A model generated the notes under the pieces. That model saw only the letters and a program-made list of their open reading frames with translations, ran no database searches and was not told the DNA's origin. Made by a program: the position numbers and the translations under genes. From Candidatus Hydrogenedentes bacterium CG07_land_8_20_14_0_80_42_17 (lineage in GTDB: Bacteria; UBA8481), in assembly GCA_002780065.1 (NCBI GenBank), contig PEWQ01000068.1:1-16120 (forward strand): DNA of 16,120 nt, in the 5' to 3' direction. Below are positions 3,173 through 16,116 of this stretch, piece by piece (position 1 is the first letter of the stretch; each line of letters begins with the position of its first letter).

Positions 3173-4030
3173 TTGACGTATTACTTCAACAAGTTCTTTA
3201 AAAATTTTATTCTCATTCTTTCCAAGCGTCAAGCCGAGGAACTTCTCCTCACCCATACTGCTCTCCAAAATAGAGAGAGAATCAAGCTGATAATAGCCGC
3301 CGCACGAAACAGCCATGAGAGCAGAAATCGGAGCTTTTGAAAGAGTGTAAATCTGAGATTCTTCAAAAGGTTTAACCTCTACGAAAATAATTCTCGACAA
3401 TTCAGCAGTTTTTCCAAATTCAGCTTTGCGCCTTCTGGAACTTTTTTTTCGCTTCTCAAATTCTAACCTAAATCTTGTAAACGGATTCTGAAGTTCGAAA
3501 GAAGGAACGGCTTTAATAATACTTTTTCCTTCTATTTCTTCTTTCCATAAAAGTATTCTGTCATCAGATAAAAACTCAAACCCCTCGCTGGATAATCTCT
3601 CTGCAATTGTGCTCTTGCCGCTCCCGCTGCGGCCGGCGAAGAGAACTGCTTTTCCATTGAATAATACGCTTGAAGCATGAATGGGCACAATCCCAAATTC
3701 CGACAAGGCGTAAAGAATCGCCGGAACAACAATTGAGGAAAGTCTGTCAGAACGATTAGGCGCAGAAGGAATAATTGTAAATATTTCCAGTTGTGCAGAA
3801 ATTGAACTTAATTTTTTTCTGCAAACTTTTGTCTGAGACAGTCCAAAAGCTCTTCCAATTTCAACGGCGGAAGGCGGAGCTTTTTCAGCCGGCCGAATAG
3901 AAATTTCTATTCTACAGTCAGGAAGTGCGTTTCCTTCAAACGACCTAATAAAATACGGAAGTGTTTCTTCCTGAGAATTTTCAGGAAGATAAAGATTAAC
4001 CTTTGCGTTTCCGAATTGAAAATGTATCAT
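3170..4030 (-). CDS. HPr-kinase-like P-loop ATPase
   Basis: The 286-residue product has an unrecognised N-terminal part (1-110). It is followed by a P-loop domain resembling the C-terminal catalytic domain of HPr kinase/phosphorylase and stand-alone 'HprK-related' kinases: 'PIHASSV' at 117-122, Walker A GRSGSGKST at 133-141 and 'FLSDD' at 153-157 where the family has its second acidic motif. No signal peptide or membrane segment is seen. Its target is unknown: no HPr, PqqD-like or PTS gene is nearby. It may head the asd-trxA operon (55 bp gap with an inverted repeat). The start at 4030 is only 11 bp from the ATG (4042) of a divergent remnant, so its promoter must lie in that coding sequence. 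In the ancestral arrangement it stood back to back with the large NHL gene now at 5441. Confidence 0.7.
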   Translation of the reverse strand: MIHFQFGNAKVNLYLPENSQEETLPYFIRSFEGNALPDCRIEISIRPAEKAPPSAVEIGRAFGLSQTKVCRKKLSSISAQLEIFTIIPSAPNRSDRLSSIVVPAILYALSEFGIVPIHASSVLFNGKAVLFAGRSGSGKSTIAERLSSEGFEFLSDDRILLWKEEIEGKSIIKAVPSFELQNPFTRFRLEFEKRKKSSRRRKAEFGKTAELSRIIFVEVKPFEESQIYTLSKAPISALMAVSCGGYYQLDSLSILESSMGEEKFLGLTLGKNENKIFKELVEVIRQ

Positions 4031-4172
4031 TAAATAAAGTTATGAATTATTTTAGAATAATTGCAATCAAATTATTTTTACCGGCAATTTTAATTTCTAT
4101 TTCAGGAATTGTTGCAGAGGGGCTGGATGCAGTATCAATCAAAAATTACTTTATCTTCGACAAAGACAGAGG
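3942..4172. repeat. Direct repeat copy A of the kinase/NHL-gene junction
   Basis: About 230 bp matching 4893-4909 plus 5358-5571. From 3951 the copies align without gaps at a constant offset of 1399 bp. I count 13 mismatches in the first 200 aligned bases (3951-4150, about 93.5% identity), then divergence rises over the last 20 or so. A stretch of 53 bp (4014-4066, equal to 5413-5465) is identical and holds both start codons and the intergenic spacer. Copy A carries the 5' part of the intact kinase gene and the first 43 or so codons of the large NHL gene. Confidence 0.9.
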
Positions 4173-4195: not shown

Positions 4196-4426
4196 ATGAA
4201 CTGGGAAGAAAGAATCGTCGCCGATCCGAAGGTCATGGTGGGAAAACCGGTCATCAAGGGAACGCGCATGACCGTGGAATTCATCACCGACCTTCTAGCC
4301 AACGGCTGGACCGAGAAGCAGATCATGGAGCACTATCCGCATGTGACGCACGAGGACATTCTCGCCTGTCTCGCCTTTGCCAACGAACTCGTGCGGGTGG
4401 AGAAGGTATACCAGGTTGCTGGCTGA
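4196..4426 (+). CDS. DUF433 antitoxin-like protein
   Basis: A 76-residue protein of the DUF433 family (helix-turn-helix-like), widely found as the upstream partner of DUF5615 PIN-like proteins. The family signature is clear: 'RI..DP.V..GKPVI.GTR..VE', then a helical region 'LANGWTEKQIMEHYPHVTHEDILACLAFA'. It starts at an ATG with GAGGTGA 4 bases upstream, and its stop is 3 bp before the next gene, so the two are co-translated. By analogy it should bind and neutralise the partner and possibly autoregulate through DNA binding. That role is inferred from family context. Codon use is G+C-rich, unlike the flanking chromosome. Confidence 0.85.
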   Translation: MNWEERIVADPKVMVGKPVIKGTRMTVEFITDLLANGWTEKQIMEHYPHVTHEDILACLAFANELVRVEKVYQVAG

Positions 4427-4429
4427 CCC

Positions 4430-4804
4430 GTGCGTTTTCTCGCCGACGAAAACTTCGACACCCTTGTAGTCAAGACGCTTCGCGAGGCTGGGCATGACGT
4501 GTCGTGGATCCGCGACATTGCGCCCGGTGCGCCGGATGAAGAGGTCTGGGATCACGCCGTGAAAGAGAATCGAATTCTTCTGACCTTTGACAAGGACTTC
4601 GGCGAGGTCGCCTTCGTTCGGACGCGCACCGTCATTCCGGGAATCATCCTCTTTCGCCTTCACGGCGTTCCGGCAGATGAGATCGTTGCAAAGATCACGG
4701 CCGCGATTACATCGCGCGAGGAATGGCTCGGCCATTTCAGCGTCGTGGACGATAAGCGAATCCGCATGACGCCGCTCAGACGGCCTCGGGTTCAGAAAGA
4801 TTGA
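4430..4804 (+). CDS. DUF5615 PIN-like protein, putative ribonuclease toxin
   Basis: A 124-residue protein matching the DUF5615 PIN-like family. Hallmarks are the N-terminal FLADENFD (Asp6, Glu7, Asn8) and 'ILLTFDKDFG' (Asp54, Asp56), the acidic residues expected to coordinate metal in PIN-type nucleases. 'PDEEVWDHAVKE' precedes them, as in homologues, and the length is usual. It starts at GTG 4430, 3 bp after the DUF433 stop, and has no strong ribosome binding site of its own, which fits translational coupling. The reading frame is complete and the acidic residues are present, so it is probably active. Toxicity and RNA cleavage are inferred from family membership. Confidence 0.82.
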   Translation: MRFLADENFDTLVVKTLREAGHDVSWIRDIAPGAPDEEVWDHAVKENRILLTFDKDFGEVAFVRTRTVIPGIILFRLHGVPADEIVAKITAAITSREEWLGHFSVVDDKRIRMTPLRRPRVQKD

Positions 4805-4899
4805 AGAACCGCTCCACCTGCGATAAAGATGATTCCGAGGAACTCCGGCGAGAGGTCGAGGAATTCGTGAAGCGCCGCAGGCCTCGGCCGATGACCTAA
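4756..4899 (+). pseudogene. Possible short coding remnant at the end of the cassette
   Basis: An open frame without an ATG runs from just after an in-frame stop at 4753 to a TAA at 4897-4899. Its last part, from about 4829, encodes a charged helix-like run (DDSEELRREVEEFVKRRRPR) before the stop. The final codons run into repeat copy B. It could be the 3' end of another cassette gene, or chance in G+C-rich DNA. I recognise no family. Confidence 0.25.
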
Positions 4900-4909
4900 T
4901 AAAATAAGG
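4893..4909. repeat. Left fragment of direct repeat copy B
   Basis: GACCTAATAAAATAAGG matches copy A at 3942-3958 in 16 of 17 positions. Its last 8 bases (AAATAAGG, 4902-4909) pair with AAATACGG at 5350-5357 as an apparent target-site duplication of the element at 4910-5349. Removing the element and one copy of the duplication restores a continuous copy B. Confidence 0.8.
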
Positions 4910-5349
4910 GTAACTATTCAGCCATTTTTAACCACCGAAATCGCCGAAGACGGCGAATAGGTAAATAATGAAGATCCCTCTCGAACATGAAGAATTGACG
5001 GGAAGAATTCGGCAAGCGGCCTTTGAGACTCACTGCTATTTTGGGAACGAGTTCCTGGAAAAGATATACGAGAACTCGCTCTCTCGACATCTCCGAAAGA
5101 TTGGATTAGGCGCTTTACAGCAAGAGCCCATCACGGTTCGCGACGAGGCGCAAGTGCATCATTATCTCAAAATCTCAAAGCTAACGGACTTGCTCTCGAA
5201 CTCCTCATTAACTTCGGGGCCGAAAAGCTCCAATTCAAAATGATAATTCGAACTCGGAAATGACAAAACCTTACTTCCAATTCGTCTCTTGTTCGGCGAA
5301 TTCGGCGGTAAAAACAGGTAAACGGTTACCAAGTGTGCTGAATAGTTAC
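4910..5349. mobile_element. 440-bp inverted-repeat element carrying a broken GxxExxY gene
   Basis: The ends are perfect 13-bp inverted repeats: GTAACTATTCAGC at 4910-4922 and GCTGAATAGTTAC at 5337-5349. Inside them a second imperfect inverted pair is visible: TTTTTAACCACCGAAATCGC on the left against TTTTTACCGCCGAATTCGCC on the right when read on the minus strand. The flanks are AAATAAGG and AAATACGG, an apparent 8-bp target duplication. The only gene inside is a decayed GxxExxY gene; there is no transposase. The element sits within repeat copy B, in a stretch that is pseudogene sequence there, so it arrived after the duplication. Confidence 0.8.
4968..5263 (+). pseudogene. Decayed GxxExxY protein gene
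   Basis: The N-terminal part matches the GxxExxY family: 'TGRIRQAAFETHCYFGNEFLEKIYENSL', where Gly-x-x-x-x-Glu-x-x-Tyr-like spacing and the flanking residues are recognisable. After 'ITVRDE' the sequence jumps straight to 'AQVHHYLK'. The middle section that in full-length members holds the PD-(D/E)XK-like 'DLLV...ELK' motif, roughly 30-35 residues, is missing. Then an 8-bp tandem duplication (TCTCAAAA/TCTCAAAG, 5165-5180) shifts the frame. Dropping 8 bases restores the typical C-terminus 'LKANGLALELLINFGAEKLQ' to a TGA at 5261-5263. In the uncorrected frame translation ends at 5243. The copy has lost its putative nuclease centre. Confidence 0.85.
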
Positions 5350-5429
5350 AAATACGGAAGTGTTTCTTCCTGAGAATTTTCTGGAAGATGAAGATTAACT
5401 TTTGCGTTTCCAAATTGAAAATGTATCAT
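5346..5429 (-). pseudogene. 5' remnant of the HPr-kinase-like gene in repeat copy B
   Basis: Encodes MIHFQFGNAKVNLHLPENSQ and a few more residues, matching residues 1-26 of the intact kinase with one change (Tyr14 to His). It then ends at a TAA formed by the terminal inverted repeat of the GxxExxY element. The next few kinase codons (Phe-Ile-Arg-Ser) can be found on the far side of the element at 4893-4909. Confidence 0.8.
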
Positions 5430-5571
5430 TAAATAAAGTTATGAATTATTTTAGAATAATTGCAACCAAAATATTTTTACCGGCTATTTTAATTTCTATT
5501 TCAGGAATTGCTGCAGTGGGGCTGGATGCAGTATCAATAAAAAACTATTTTGTTTTCAGCCGCGATAGAGA
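5358..5571. repeat. Right portion of direct repeat copy B
   Basis: Continues the match to copy A (3959-4172) after the element's target duplication. It contains the dead kinase 5' end and the live start of the 1332-residue gene. The upstream region now serving that gene is therefore this duplicated segment plus the end of the GxxExxY element. Confidence 0.85.
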
Positions 5572-14663: not shown

Positions 14664-15403
14664 AATCCAAATTCCTTCAGAGCCTGAACCCAATCCGGAT
14701 ATATCTCAAAATGCTTTGCAAAATTAGATTCCTTCAAAGTATTCAAATGCTCTTCGGTTTTCGTAATAAATTTAATTTCAATTTCGTTTTTCTTTGCAAT
14801 CTGCTGTAAGCGCGCCAGCTTTCCAAAAGAAAGCGTAGAAATTTCTCCGGTCAAAGAAAAATCCAAAAGAATCGATGTAGAACCTGTTTCAAAAAGTCTC
14901 TGAATCTGCCTTAATAGTTCCTCGTCTTTTTGATTTGGATATTCCTTTCCAATCAAAACCGTTGAAACTATCGGCCAAGATGATTTATTTTTCGGCTCTT
15001 CAATTTTTTCCGGTTCTCTCTTCGTTCCTGACTGCTGAATCAACTTGAGCGCCTTTTGCATAAGCTGATCCAGATTGAATGGTTTGACAATATAATCTTT
15101 AGCTCCAAGCTTCATAGCCTGCAAAATGTCATCCTCGGTTCCTTTTGCAGATACAACCAGAACAGGGATTGAAGAGGTTCTCTCATCAGAACGAAGTTTT
15201 TCAAGAACTTGAAAGCCGTCTATTCCCGGCATCATAATATCAAGAAGCATTAGATCAGGCTGATTGTTAATTGCCAATGTAATAGCCGCAAGACCATCCT
15301 GCGCCGACAAAATATCAAAACCTTTCCGCTTCAAATTAAACTCAAGAATGTTCCTAACATTTGTCTGATCATCGACTACAAGAATTGTGTTTCTTTCACT
15401 CAT
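14660..15403 (-). CDS. Response regulator: receiver plus STAS-like domain
   Basis: A 247-residue protein. The receiver domain (about 5-122) is complete: acidic pair Asp11/Asp12, phosphoacceptor Asp55 in LLDIMMPG, Ser85 in 'VLVVSAKG' and Lys107 in VKPF. After a charged linker the C-terminal region (about 150-247) resembles a STAS (anti-anti-sigma) domain: '[20 protein letters not shown]', then helix-rich sequence and '[14 protein letters not shown]'. The usual DSSG phosphorylation site is not kept (STLS instead). It therefore probably signals through protein contacts, not DNA binding. The start at ATG 15403 is set by GGAGGAG at 15408-15414; an ATG at 15418 lies upstream of that site. It overlaps the HEPN stop by 8 bp and thiG by 4 bp. 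No histidine kinase is in view. Confidence 0.85.
14673..14677 (-). promoter_or_regulatory. Ribosome binding site for thiG
   Basis: AAGGA on the minus strand, 9 bases before the GTG at 14663. It favours the GTG over the TTG at 14693, which lies upstream of it. Confidence 0.55.
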
Positions 15404-15812
15404 GAATCTCCTCCACATTTAACTTATTTCTGACAAATTTCTTTACTTTCTTTGCAATCGCAAAAGCCTCTTTAGCATCTTCTATTCCTGGCTGGAATGT
15501 GACATCCGGATAACGAATCTCTACTGCATAATCTGTAAGATTGTCAGCATCATTTAACTCATCTTTGAAAGAGGAATCTACATTCGCACATAATTCTAAC
15601 AAATTAATTATTTTATGACTTTTAGTAAAGTAAATTTGATGGTGTACTAAAAATGCCTTAATATACTTCTCTACGGCCTGCTGGCAATGAAAACAAACAG
15701 TTTCTGTGACAGGATTTTCAAAAGATAACTCCCTTTCTGAACTCAAAAGATCTTTATCCGCCTTCATTATCCATTTATTAACCAAACCTTTAATAATTTC
15801 ATCTTGATTCAT
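15396..15812 (-). CDS. HEPN-domain protein of an MNT-HEPN pair
   Basis: A 138-residue helical protein of the HEPN family. 'CFHCQQAVEKYIKAFLVHH' (40-58) is the typical 'H.Q.A.EK..KA.L' helix, followed by 'SHKIINLLELC' (65-75) and 'YAVEIRYPD' (95-103). The Rx4-6H ribonuclease motif is not seen: no His follows Arg100 at the right distance. This copy may be non-catalytic, or belong to the RYP subgroup. I start it at ATG 15812, which has GGAAAGG about 7 bases upstream; the open frame extends to 15878 but overlaps the MNT gene heavily. It overlaps the MNT end by 14 bp and the response regulator start by 8 bp, so the three are chained in translation. Confidence 0.82.
   Translation of the reverse strand: MNQDEIIKGLVNKWIMKADKDLLSSERELSFENPVTETVCFHCQQAVEKYIKAFLVHHQIYFTKSHKIINLLELCANVDSSFKDELNDADNLTDYAVEIRYPDVTFQPGIEDAKEAFAIAKKVKKFVRNKLNVEEIHE
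15408..15414 (-). promoter_or_regulatory. Ribosome binding site for the response regulator inside the HEPN gene
   Basis: GGAGGAG on the minus strand, 4 bases before the ATG at 15403, encoded within the last codons of the HEPN gene. It rules against the in-frame ATG at 15418 and ties response-regulator translation to the toxin-antitoxin-type pair. Confidence 0.75.
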
Positions 15813-16116
15813 AGATAACCTTTCCAAATTTATTTGCAGAATAGATAATAGTACCGATGATCTCTTTATATATTTCAAATTCTTTAATACTTTTTACAAT
15901 CACATCTACCGGAATTTTTAAATCAGACAGCATCTTTCTAACTTTACGATTTTCGATGTGTGCCGGCAAATTACTATCCTTAACAATTAACAGATCTATA
16001 TCACTTGCTTCTGTAGGAGTTCCGGTCGCATAAGAACCAAAAAGAATTATTTTATTAGGATTAAGATTTTCTGTAATTCGTCTTTTAATTTCATCTAATT
16101 GTGCTTGGGTCAACAT
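15799..16116 (-). CDS. MNT-type minimal nucleotidyltransferase
   Basis: A 105-residue nucleotidyltransferase of the pol-beta superfamily. The GSx10DxD signature is complete: Gly27-Ser28 in ILFGSYATG, then Asp39 and Asp41 in SDIDLLIV. A third acidic residue, Asp71, lies in 'IPVDVIV'. Paired with a HEPN protein, such enzymes act as antitoxins that nucleotidylate the partner, or as the MNT half of a defence-type module; that role is by analogy. The ATG at 16114-16116 is 4 bp from the window edge, so the ribosome binding site and promoter are outside, and an earlier start cannot be excluded. The coding sequence overlaps the HEPN gene by 14 bp. Confidence 0.88.
   Translation of the reverse strand: MLTQAQLDEIKRRITENLNPNKIILFGSYATGTPTEASDIDLLIVKDSNLPAHIENRKVRKMLSDLKIPVDVIVKSIKEFEIYKEIIGTIIYSANKFGKVIYESR

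Follow-up and report, generated by a model that had tools for sequence, protein, structure and literature searches.

The 440-bp unit described here is, with a probability that we would put at about 0.8, a non-autonomous mini-transposon of the IS66 type, that is, a MITE or a mobile insertion cassette, which carries a gene of the GxxExxY family as a passenger. It lies between protein genes in the 16,120-nucleotide stretch of DNA that was analysed (the window), and the features observed in favor of this reading are the two ends, an 8-bp duplication, a restored target, the loss of the active site from the passenger gene, and related elements with perfect duplications. An IS66-family transposase, acting in trans, would have recognized the GTAACTATTCAG ends, the element would have been inserted after AAATACGG into the second of the two copies of an intergenic stretch, and the GxxExxY gene would have decayed later, by internal deletion and by an 8-bp tandem duplication. 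The features are listed in Table 1.

Table 1. Coordinates of the element, its contents and its surroundings, as positions in the window.
Feature	Position	Strand	Basis
First copy of the duplicated host intergenic stretch (paralogous empty site)	3942..4171	.	91% match
Second copy, start, interrupted by the element	4893..4909	.	16/17 match
Target duplication, left copy, AAATAAGG	4902..4909	.	7/8 equal to 5350-5357
Left terminal inverted repeat, GTAACTATTCAGC, IS66-type	4910..4922	+	Exact match; 12/13 equal to transposase-bearing IS66 ends of G048
Left inner arm, about TTTTTAACCACCGAAATCGCCGAAG	4925..4949	+	Sequence reading; flank comparison
Broken GxxExxY (PF13366 / TIGR04256) gene, N-terminal half only	4968..5243	+	Profile matches
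C-terminal GxxExxY remnant, NLKANGLALELLINFGAEKLQFKM, other reading frame	5171..5248	+	56% identity to the Jettenia protein, residues 99-123
Right inner arm, about TTTTTACCGCCGAATTCGCCGAAC on the - strand	5291..5314	-	Sequence reading; flank comparison
Internal end-like repeat, GTAACCGTTTACC, 20 bp inward of the right end	5317..5329	-	
Right terminal inverted repeat	5337..5349	-	Exact reverse complement of the left end
Target duplication, right copy, AAATACGG	5350..5357	.	Equal to the paralogous empty site
Second copy, remainder	5350..5570	.	91% match

Two exact inverted copies of a 13-bp sequence enclose the element, and when up to two mismatches are allowed these two ends are the only matches to the sequence in the window, with 0.21 matches expected. 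When the surrounding 2.5 kb were shuffled 300 times, an exact 13-bp inverted pair combined with an 8-bp direct repeat (at most one mismatch) never appeared. No transposase gene is present in the 440 bp, the sole content being the broken PF13366 ORF, and taking out the element along with one flank yields GACCTAATAAAATACGGAAGTGTTTCTTCCTGAGAATTTT, identical to the paralogous stretch that starts at 3942. An earlier, sequence-only reading had described a transposase-free unit bounded by perfect 13-bp ends and an 8-bp target duplication, whose removal rebuilds host sequence matching that at 3942. The exact pair of ends and the genuineness of such a transposase-free element are borne out, the duplication is confirmed at 7 of 8 positions (8 of 8 in two relatives from the genome designated G087), and the rebuilt sequence is identical to that at 3942 throughout, but the empty site is not an allele: what was matched there belongs to a longer, diverged duplication (3951-4171 versus 5350-5570, 91%), and the empty site is thus a paralogue. 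The second copy is interrupted by the element after its first 17 bp. This duplication (approximately 230 bp, 91%) takes in the intergenic stretch along with the beginnings of the two neighboring genes, and between its copies lies a DUF433-DUF5615 gene pair (4196-4804; G+C 57.6%), a segment that looks foreign, as if it had arrived with or through the duplication. Near the far end of the window, at 15396-16116, a nucleotidyltransferase-like gene is followed by a HEPN-like gene, and the two, to judge by their sequences alone, apparently form a toxin-antitoxin-like pair. A DNA similarity search against plasmids and a protein search of phage records gave no match, and a scan of viral contigs for the end-plus-gene pattern returned none.

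As to the type of the ends, IS66 elements are known for 8-bp duplications and GTAA-type ends (PMC11946415; PMC3281130). In one complete genome, G048, the transposase-bearing IS66 elements have the ends GTAACTATTCAGG/GTAACCATTCAGG and perfect 8-bp duplications, the window ends equal these at 12 of 13 bases, and a 200-bp element without a transposase possesses the same ends. What stands against the IS66 assignment is the single mismatch in the duplication and the ends themselves, which match perfectly over 13 bp and begin GTAACTA, while canonical IS66 ends are 20-30 bp long and begin GTAAGCG (PMC11946415); the transposase-bearing IS66 elements of G048, too, begin GTAACYA. The genome to which the window belongs (86.9% complete, 207 contigs) contains just a fragment of an IS66 transposase, near a contig end, and, at this level of completeness, no second copy of the element. 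A near match on its contig 145, GTAACTATTGAGC, was taken as chance and appears to sit within a gene.

The ORF inside the element matches PF13366 at 35.2 bits (cut-off 22), over profile positions 2-55 of 117, and scores 33.1 bits with TIGR04256, just below the cut-off of 35, for a gene that is partial. The nearest homologue found is an intact protein of Candidatus Jettenia ecosi (55% identity over 47 residues). Compared to the Jettenia gene, the gene in the window is missing about 91 bp, after which the frame changes: residues 60-98 of the homologue, including D70, E80, and K82, have no counterpart, and the C-terminal part (NLKANGLALELLINFGAEKLQFK) is read in a different frame from the N-terminal half, a shift apparently due to a tandem duplication of 8 bp (CTCAAAAT/CTCAAAGC). 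The window copy, the one PF13366 match in its genome, is a pseudogene, dead and with its catalytic D...ExK segment lost. The identification of the unit's only gene as GxxExxY therefore stands as far as the family is concerned, but it has to be amended to a pseudogene, with the active site gone and the frame shifted.

The structures of intact members of the family are predicted with confidence and match PD-(D/E)XK folds, in line with the suggestion of a PD-(D/E)XK-like motif in full-length GxxExxY proteins. D70, E80, and K82, which make up the D...ExK motif, are nearly invariant among 47 aligned members, and the predicted structure of the intact Jettenia member (pLDDT 97.5) finds PD-(D/E)XK nucleases as its top structural matches, SSO0001 (Z 10.3) among them, with a Z of 7.4 for the archaeal Holliday junction resolvase Hjc. 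Foldseek alone gave the model an E of only 2e-3, and by sequence no PDB chain matched the GxxExxY profile. A genome can encode as many as a dozen of these proteins, for which the literature searched yielded no function.

That GxxExxY can be the cargo of a small mobile element, as had been proposed, is supported by the window element and by at least one further family, in G087. A mini-element with the ends GTAAGTATTCAG/GTAAATACTCA occurs there in six places, its interior consisting of pieces of a GxxExxY gene, from which the family arose through internal deletion. Two of the copies have perfect 8-bp duplications (CTGTTGAT, GGCATCCT), and a third has a duplication matching at 7 of 8 positions (TATCCAGT/TATCCGGT). 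Two more elements of G087, of 200 and 97 bp, combine ends of the IS66 type with ACCAC-type inner arms and perfect 8-bp duplications, and their interiors gave no reported match to GxxExxY; shorter IS66-type elements without a recognized gene do therefore exist. Another example is the Jettenia copy, returned by a scan of public genomes for a pattern of end, arm, and gene motif. It is located in the gap between hisH and hisF, its left end starts with GTAACTATTCAG as does that of the window element, the first 36 bases of the two align at most positions, and the spacing to the arms is kept; its right end is degenerate (TTAACCACTCCGG), and its flanks agree at 6 of 8 positions only. For the left end alone, about 0.3-0.7 chance matches were estimated, making a chance hit possible, but beyond its left end this copy is also the closest homologue found for the window protein. 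The Jettenia genome encodes a paralogous hisH-hisF pair that is nearly gapless, and a comparison of hisH-hisF within the Jettenia family yielded only a 66% identical paralogue. A match of the contig scan in Sphingobacteriia (L079) was dismissed as chance, with no GxxExxY gene there.

The 13-bp ends are no explanation for the GxxExxY family as a whole. A test for two IS66-type ends with matching flanks singled out 3 of 68 GxxExxY loci at a flank length of 8 bp; lengths of 6, 7, and 9-12 bp gave none, and the three hits at 5 bp were noise. The proposal that the ends are general to these genes fails, as they are absent around most of the other loci. The inner arms are more widespread and offer the more promising lead. 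The window element contains a second, inner inverted repeat, overlooked in the sequence-only reading, with TTTTTAACCACCGAAATCGCCGAA near the left end and an imperfect reverse complement near the right, and in the folded element DNA both ends and arms pair (z -3.29). Most GxxExxY genes are flanked by short-period repeats, such as AACCACAGAGTCACAGAGGACAC, that are inverted on the opposite side, the motif varying by copy. With the arm score defined as the best ungapped inverted match between 220-bp flanks and a threshold of 14, the arms were detected at 43 of 67 GxxExxY loci; none of 90 windows taken at those loci reached the threshold, and among shuffled pairings 3.9% did. The repeat motif had the expected orientation upstream of 37 and downstream of 42 of the 67 genes; a wrong orientation was seen 5 and 6 times, respectively. 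Likewise, the S23/IVP genes (PF05635; L140-L169) have inverted, copy-specific heptamer arrays at 22 of 29 loci (0.7% when shuffled). Among the loci with the clearest arms, no target duplication was recognized by eye at the arms.

Repeats of this type are also found apart from the genes. The genus of G048 has approximately 80-100 matches to the GxxExxY flanking repeat per complete genome, part of which represent a purine-rich tract, while the ten inspected carry a ACCACAGAG-type core; in G048 itself a single GxxExxY gene was found. Such matches are dispersed in G048, G131, and G136 (for example, L182, L184, L186, and L191), many of them with a AACCACAGAGTCACAGAGGACACAGAG core. Sites in this genus that looked empty of a GxxExxY unit were rejected: a C-terminal gene remnant is retained at them, and they are thus deletions. 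A gene-less hairpin of the same type, TTCACCACGGAG...CTCCGTGTTCTCGTGGTGAA, is present on contig 145 of the window's genome (L003 850-912), and gene-less hairpins that share a repeat motif with GxxExxY genes directly adjoin these genes in L080, L019, L034, and L090.

The gaps orthologous to three GxxExxY loci of G098 were compared among family-level relatives, the Brocadiaceae. At the first site, G110 is empty and G116 is nearly empty, retaining TCTGTGGTTTC; one GxxExxY lineage, with CGCAGAG arms, occupies the site in seven genomes, a distant lineage with CACAGAT arms is found in others, and G112 and G100 have arms without a recognized gene. At the second site, GxxExxY is present in G098, G104, and G109 and S23/IVP in G114 and G115, and seven genomes have hairpins or repeat arrays without a recognized gene. 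At the third, GxxExxY is present in G098, G114, and G115, and G104 is nearly empty. At site B (L245-L256), the occupant of one and the same gap varies among the genomes of this single family, with GxxExxY units in some, S23/IVP units in others, and gene-less hairpins elsewhere. The comparison shows that units turn over at fixed sites, and it gives no direction, mechanism, or target duplication.

Units that are present, absent, or exchanged at orthologous sites, with arms that are inverted and copy-specific, would be compatible with mobilization of the element by the GxxExxY nuclease itself, cutting the arm hairpin or the target in the manner of a homing-type or resolvase-like selfish nuclease, and so would the structural matches of the Jettenia model to the PD-(D/E)XK superfamily and the near invariance of the three catalytic residues. 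We consider this unlikely. The window copy lacks the active site while its ends are still perfect. In G087, the copies with perfect duplications retain nothing but pieces of the gene, and for these, at least, something acting in trans is required; duplications of 8 bp indicate a DDE transposase of the IS66 type, and the inner arms show no recognized duplication. As the ends are IS66-type, movement can be explained by a known family of transposases, with no need for the nuclease. Of the two roles suggested by the sequence-only reading, the one of cargo is thus supported and the one of mobilizing nuclease is not.

More doubtful still is a nested insertion, in which a GxxExxY unit with its own arms landed by chance in an existing IS66-type mini-element, the outer ends then being uninformative with regard to GxxExxY. 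Most GxxExxY genes do have inner arms without IS66-type ends, and G048 has an armless IS66-type element, but the closest homologue found, the Jettenia copy, shares with the window element both the outer end and the spacing to the arm, the different G087 family joins IS66-type ends to GxxExxY arms in six places, and the two further G087 elements join such ends directly to ACCAC-type arms. That the ends and flanks arose by pure chance in A+T-rich intergenic DNA, a view for which the flank mismatch and the single copy in the genome might speak, is hardly credible in view of the shuffles, the agreement with real IS66 ends, the restored paralogous target, and the recurrence elsewhere. In the mini-transposon reading, GxxExxY genes would ordinarily be surrounded by such inner arms, which here are located within transposase-recognized ends, and the outer ends and arms have probably travelled together, since the Jettenia relative, of another lineage, keeps the left end, the spacing, and the arms.

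Among the known systems, the MITEs and mobile insertion cassettes of IS66, which are moved in trans, resemble the window element in GTAA-type inverted ends, an 8-bp duplication, no transposase, and a passenger or none. Unlike these, the window element has ends of the GTAACYATTCAG subtype that are only 13 bp long, and its passenger is a GxxExxY nuclease gene with inner arms of its own, a combination of which no description was found in the literature searched. The N-terminal half of this gene matches both GxxExxY (TIGR04256) and PDDEXK_3 (PF13366), and an intact relative matches PD-(D/E)XK folds, but, unlike the members of these families, the window copy is frameshifted and has lost the catalytic segment. 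The 23S rRNA intervening sequences with S23/IVP ORFs, in Leptospira and Coxiella, are likewise tiny units with inverted ends and one small ORF. In Coxiella, the intervening sequence carries an S23 ORF that is preceded by tandem GACAGAT heptamers (PMC4990558), comparable to the inverted heptamer arrays on both sides of the IVP genes in the genomes searched. The window unit differs in being intergenic and outside rRNA, in its protein family, and in its IS66-type ends. Finally, REP/BIME sequences with RAYT share with the GxxExxY units a small gene between inverted short repeats and, in some genomes, many gene-less copies, but GxxExxY (PF13366) is no HUH (Y1) transposase, and its arms are copy-specific repeats of short period.

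It is possible, though we would put it at somewhat less than even odds, that GxxExxY and S23/IVP genes both belong, as the coding portion, to a single widespread and so far unnamed class of tiny selfish elements, with inverted arms of copy-specific 7-10 bp repeats, gene-less hairpin derivatives, and swapping at shared intergenic sites, some units having picked up or kept IS66-type ends, by which an IS66 transposase can move them with 8-bp duplications. Neither GxxExxY genes in mini-elements nor the inner-arm pattern was found described in the openly accessible literature searched. The presence of GxxExxY genes in mobile mini-elements, with transposon ends or with their own arms only, offers a concrete reason for their copy number and scatter, and the inner-arm pattern common to GxxExxY genes, S23/IVP genes, and gene-less hairpins makes the spread of rRNA intervening sequences and similar tiny units directly testable.
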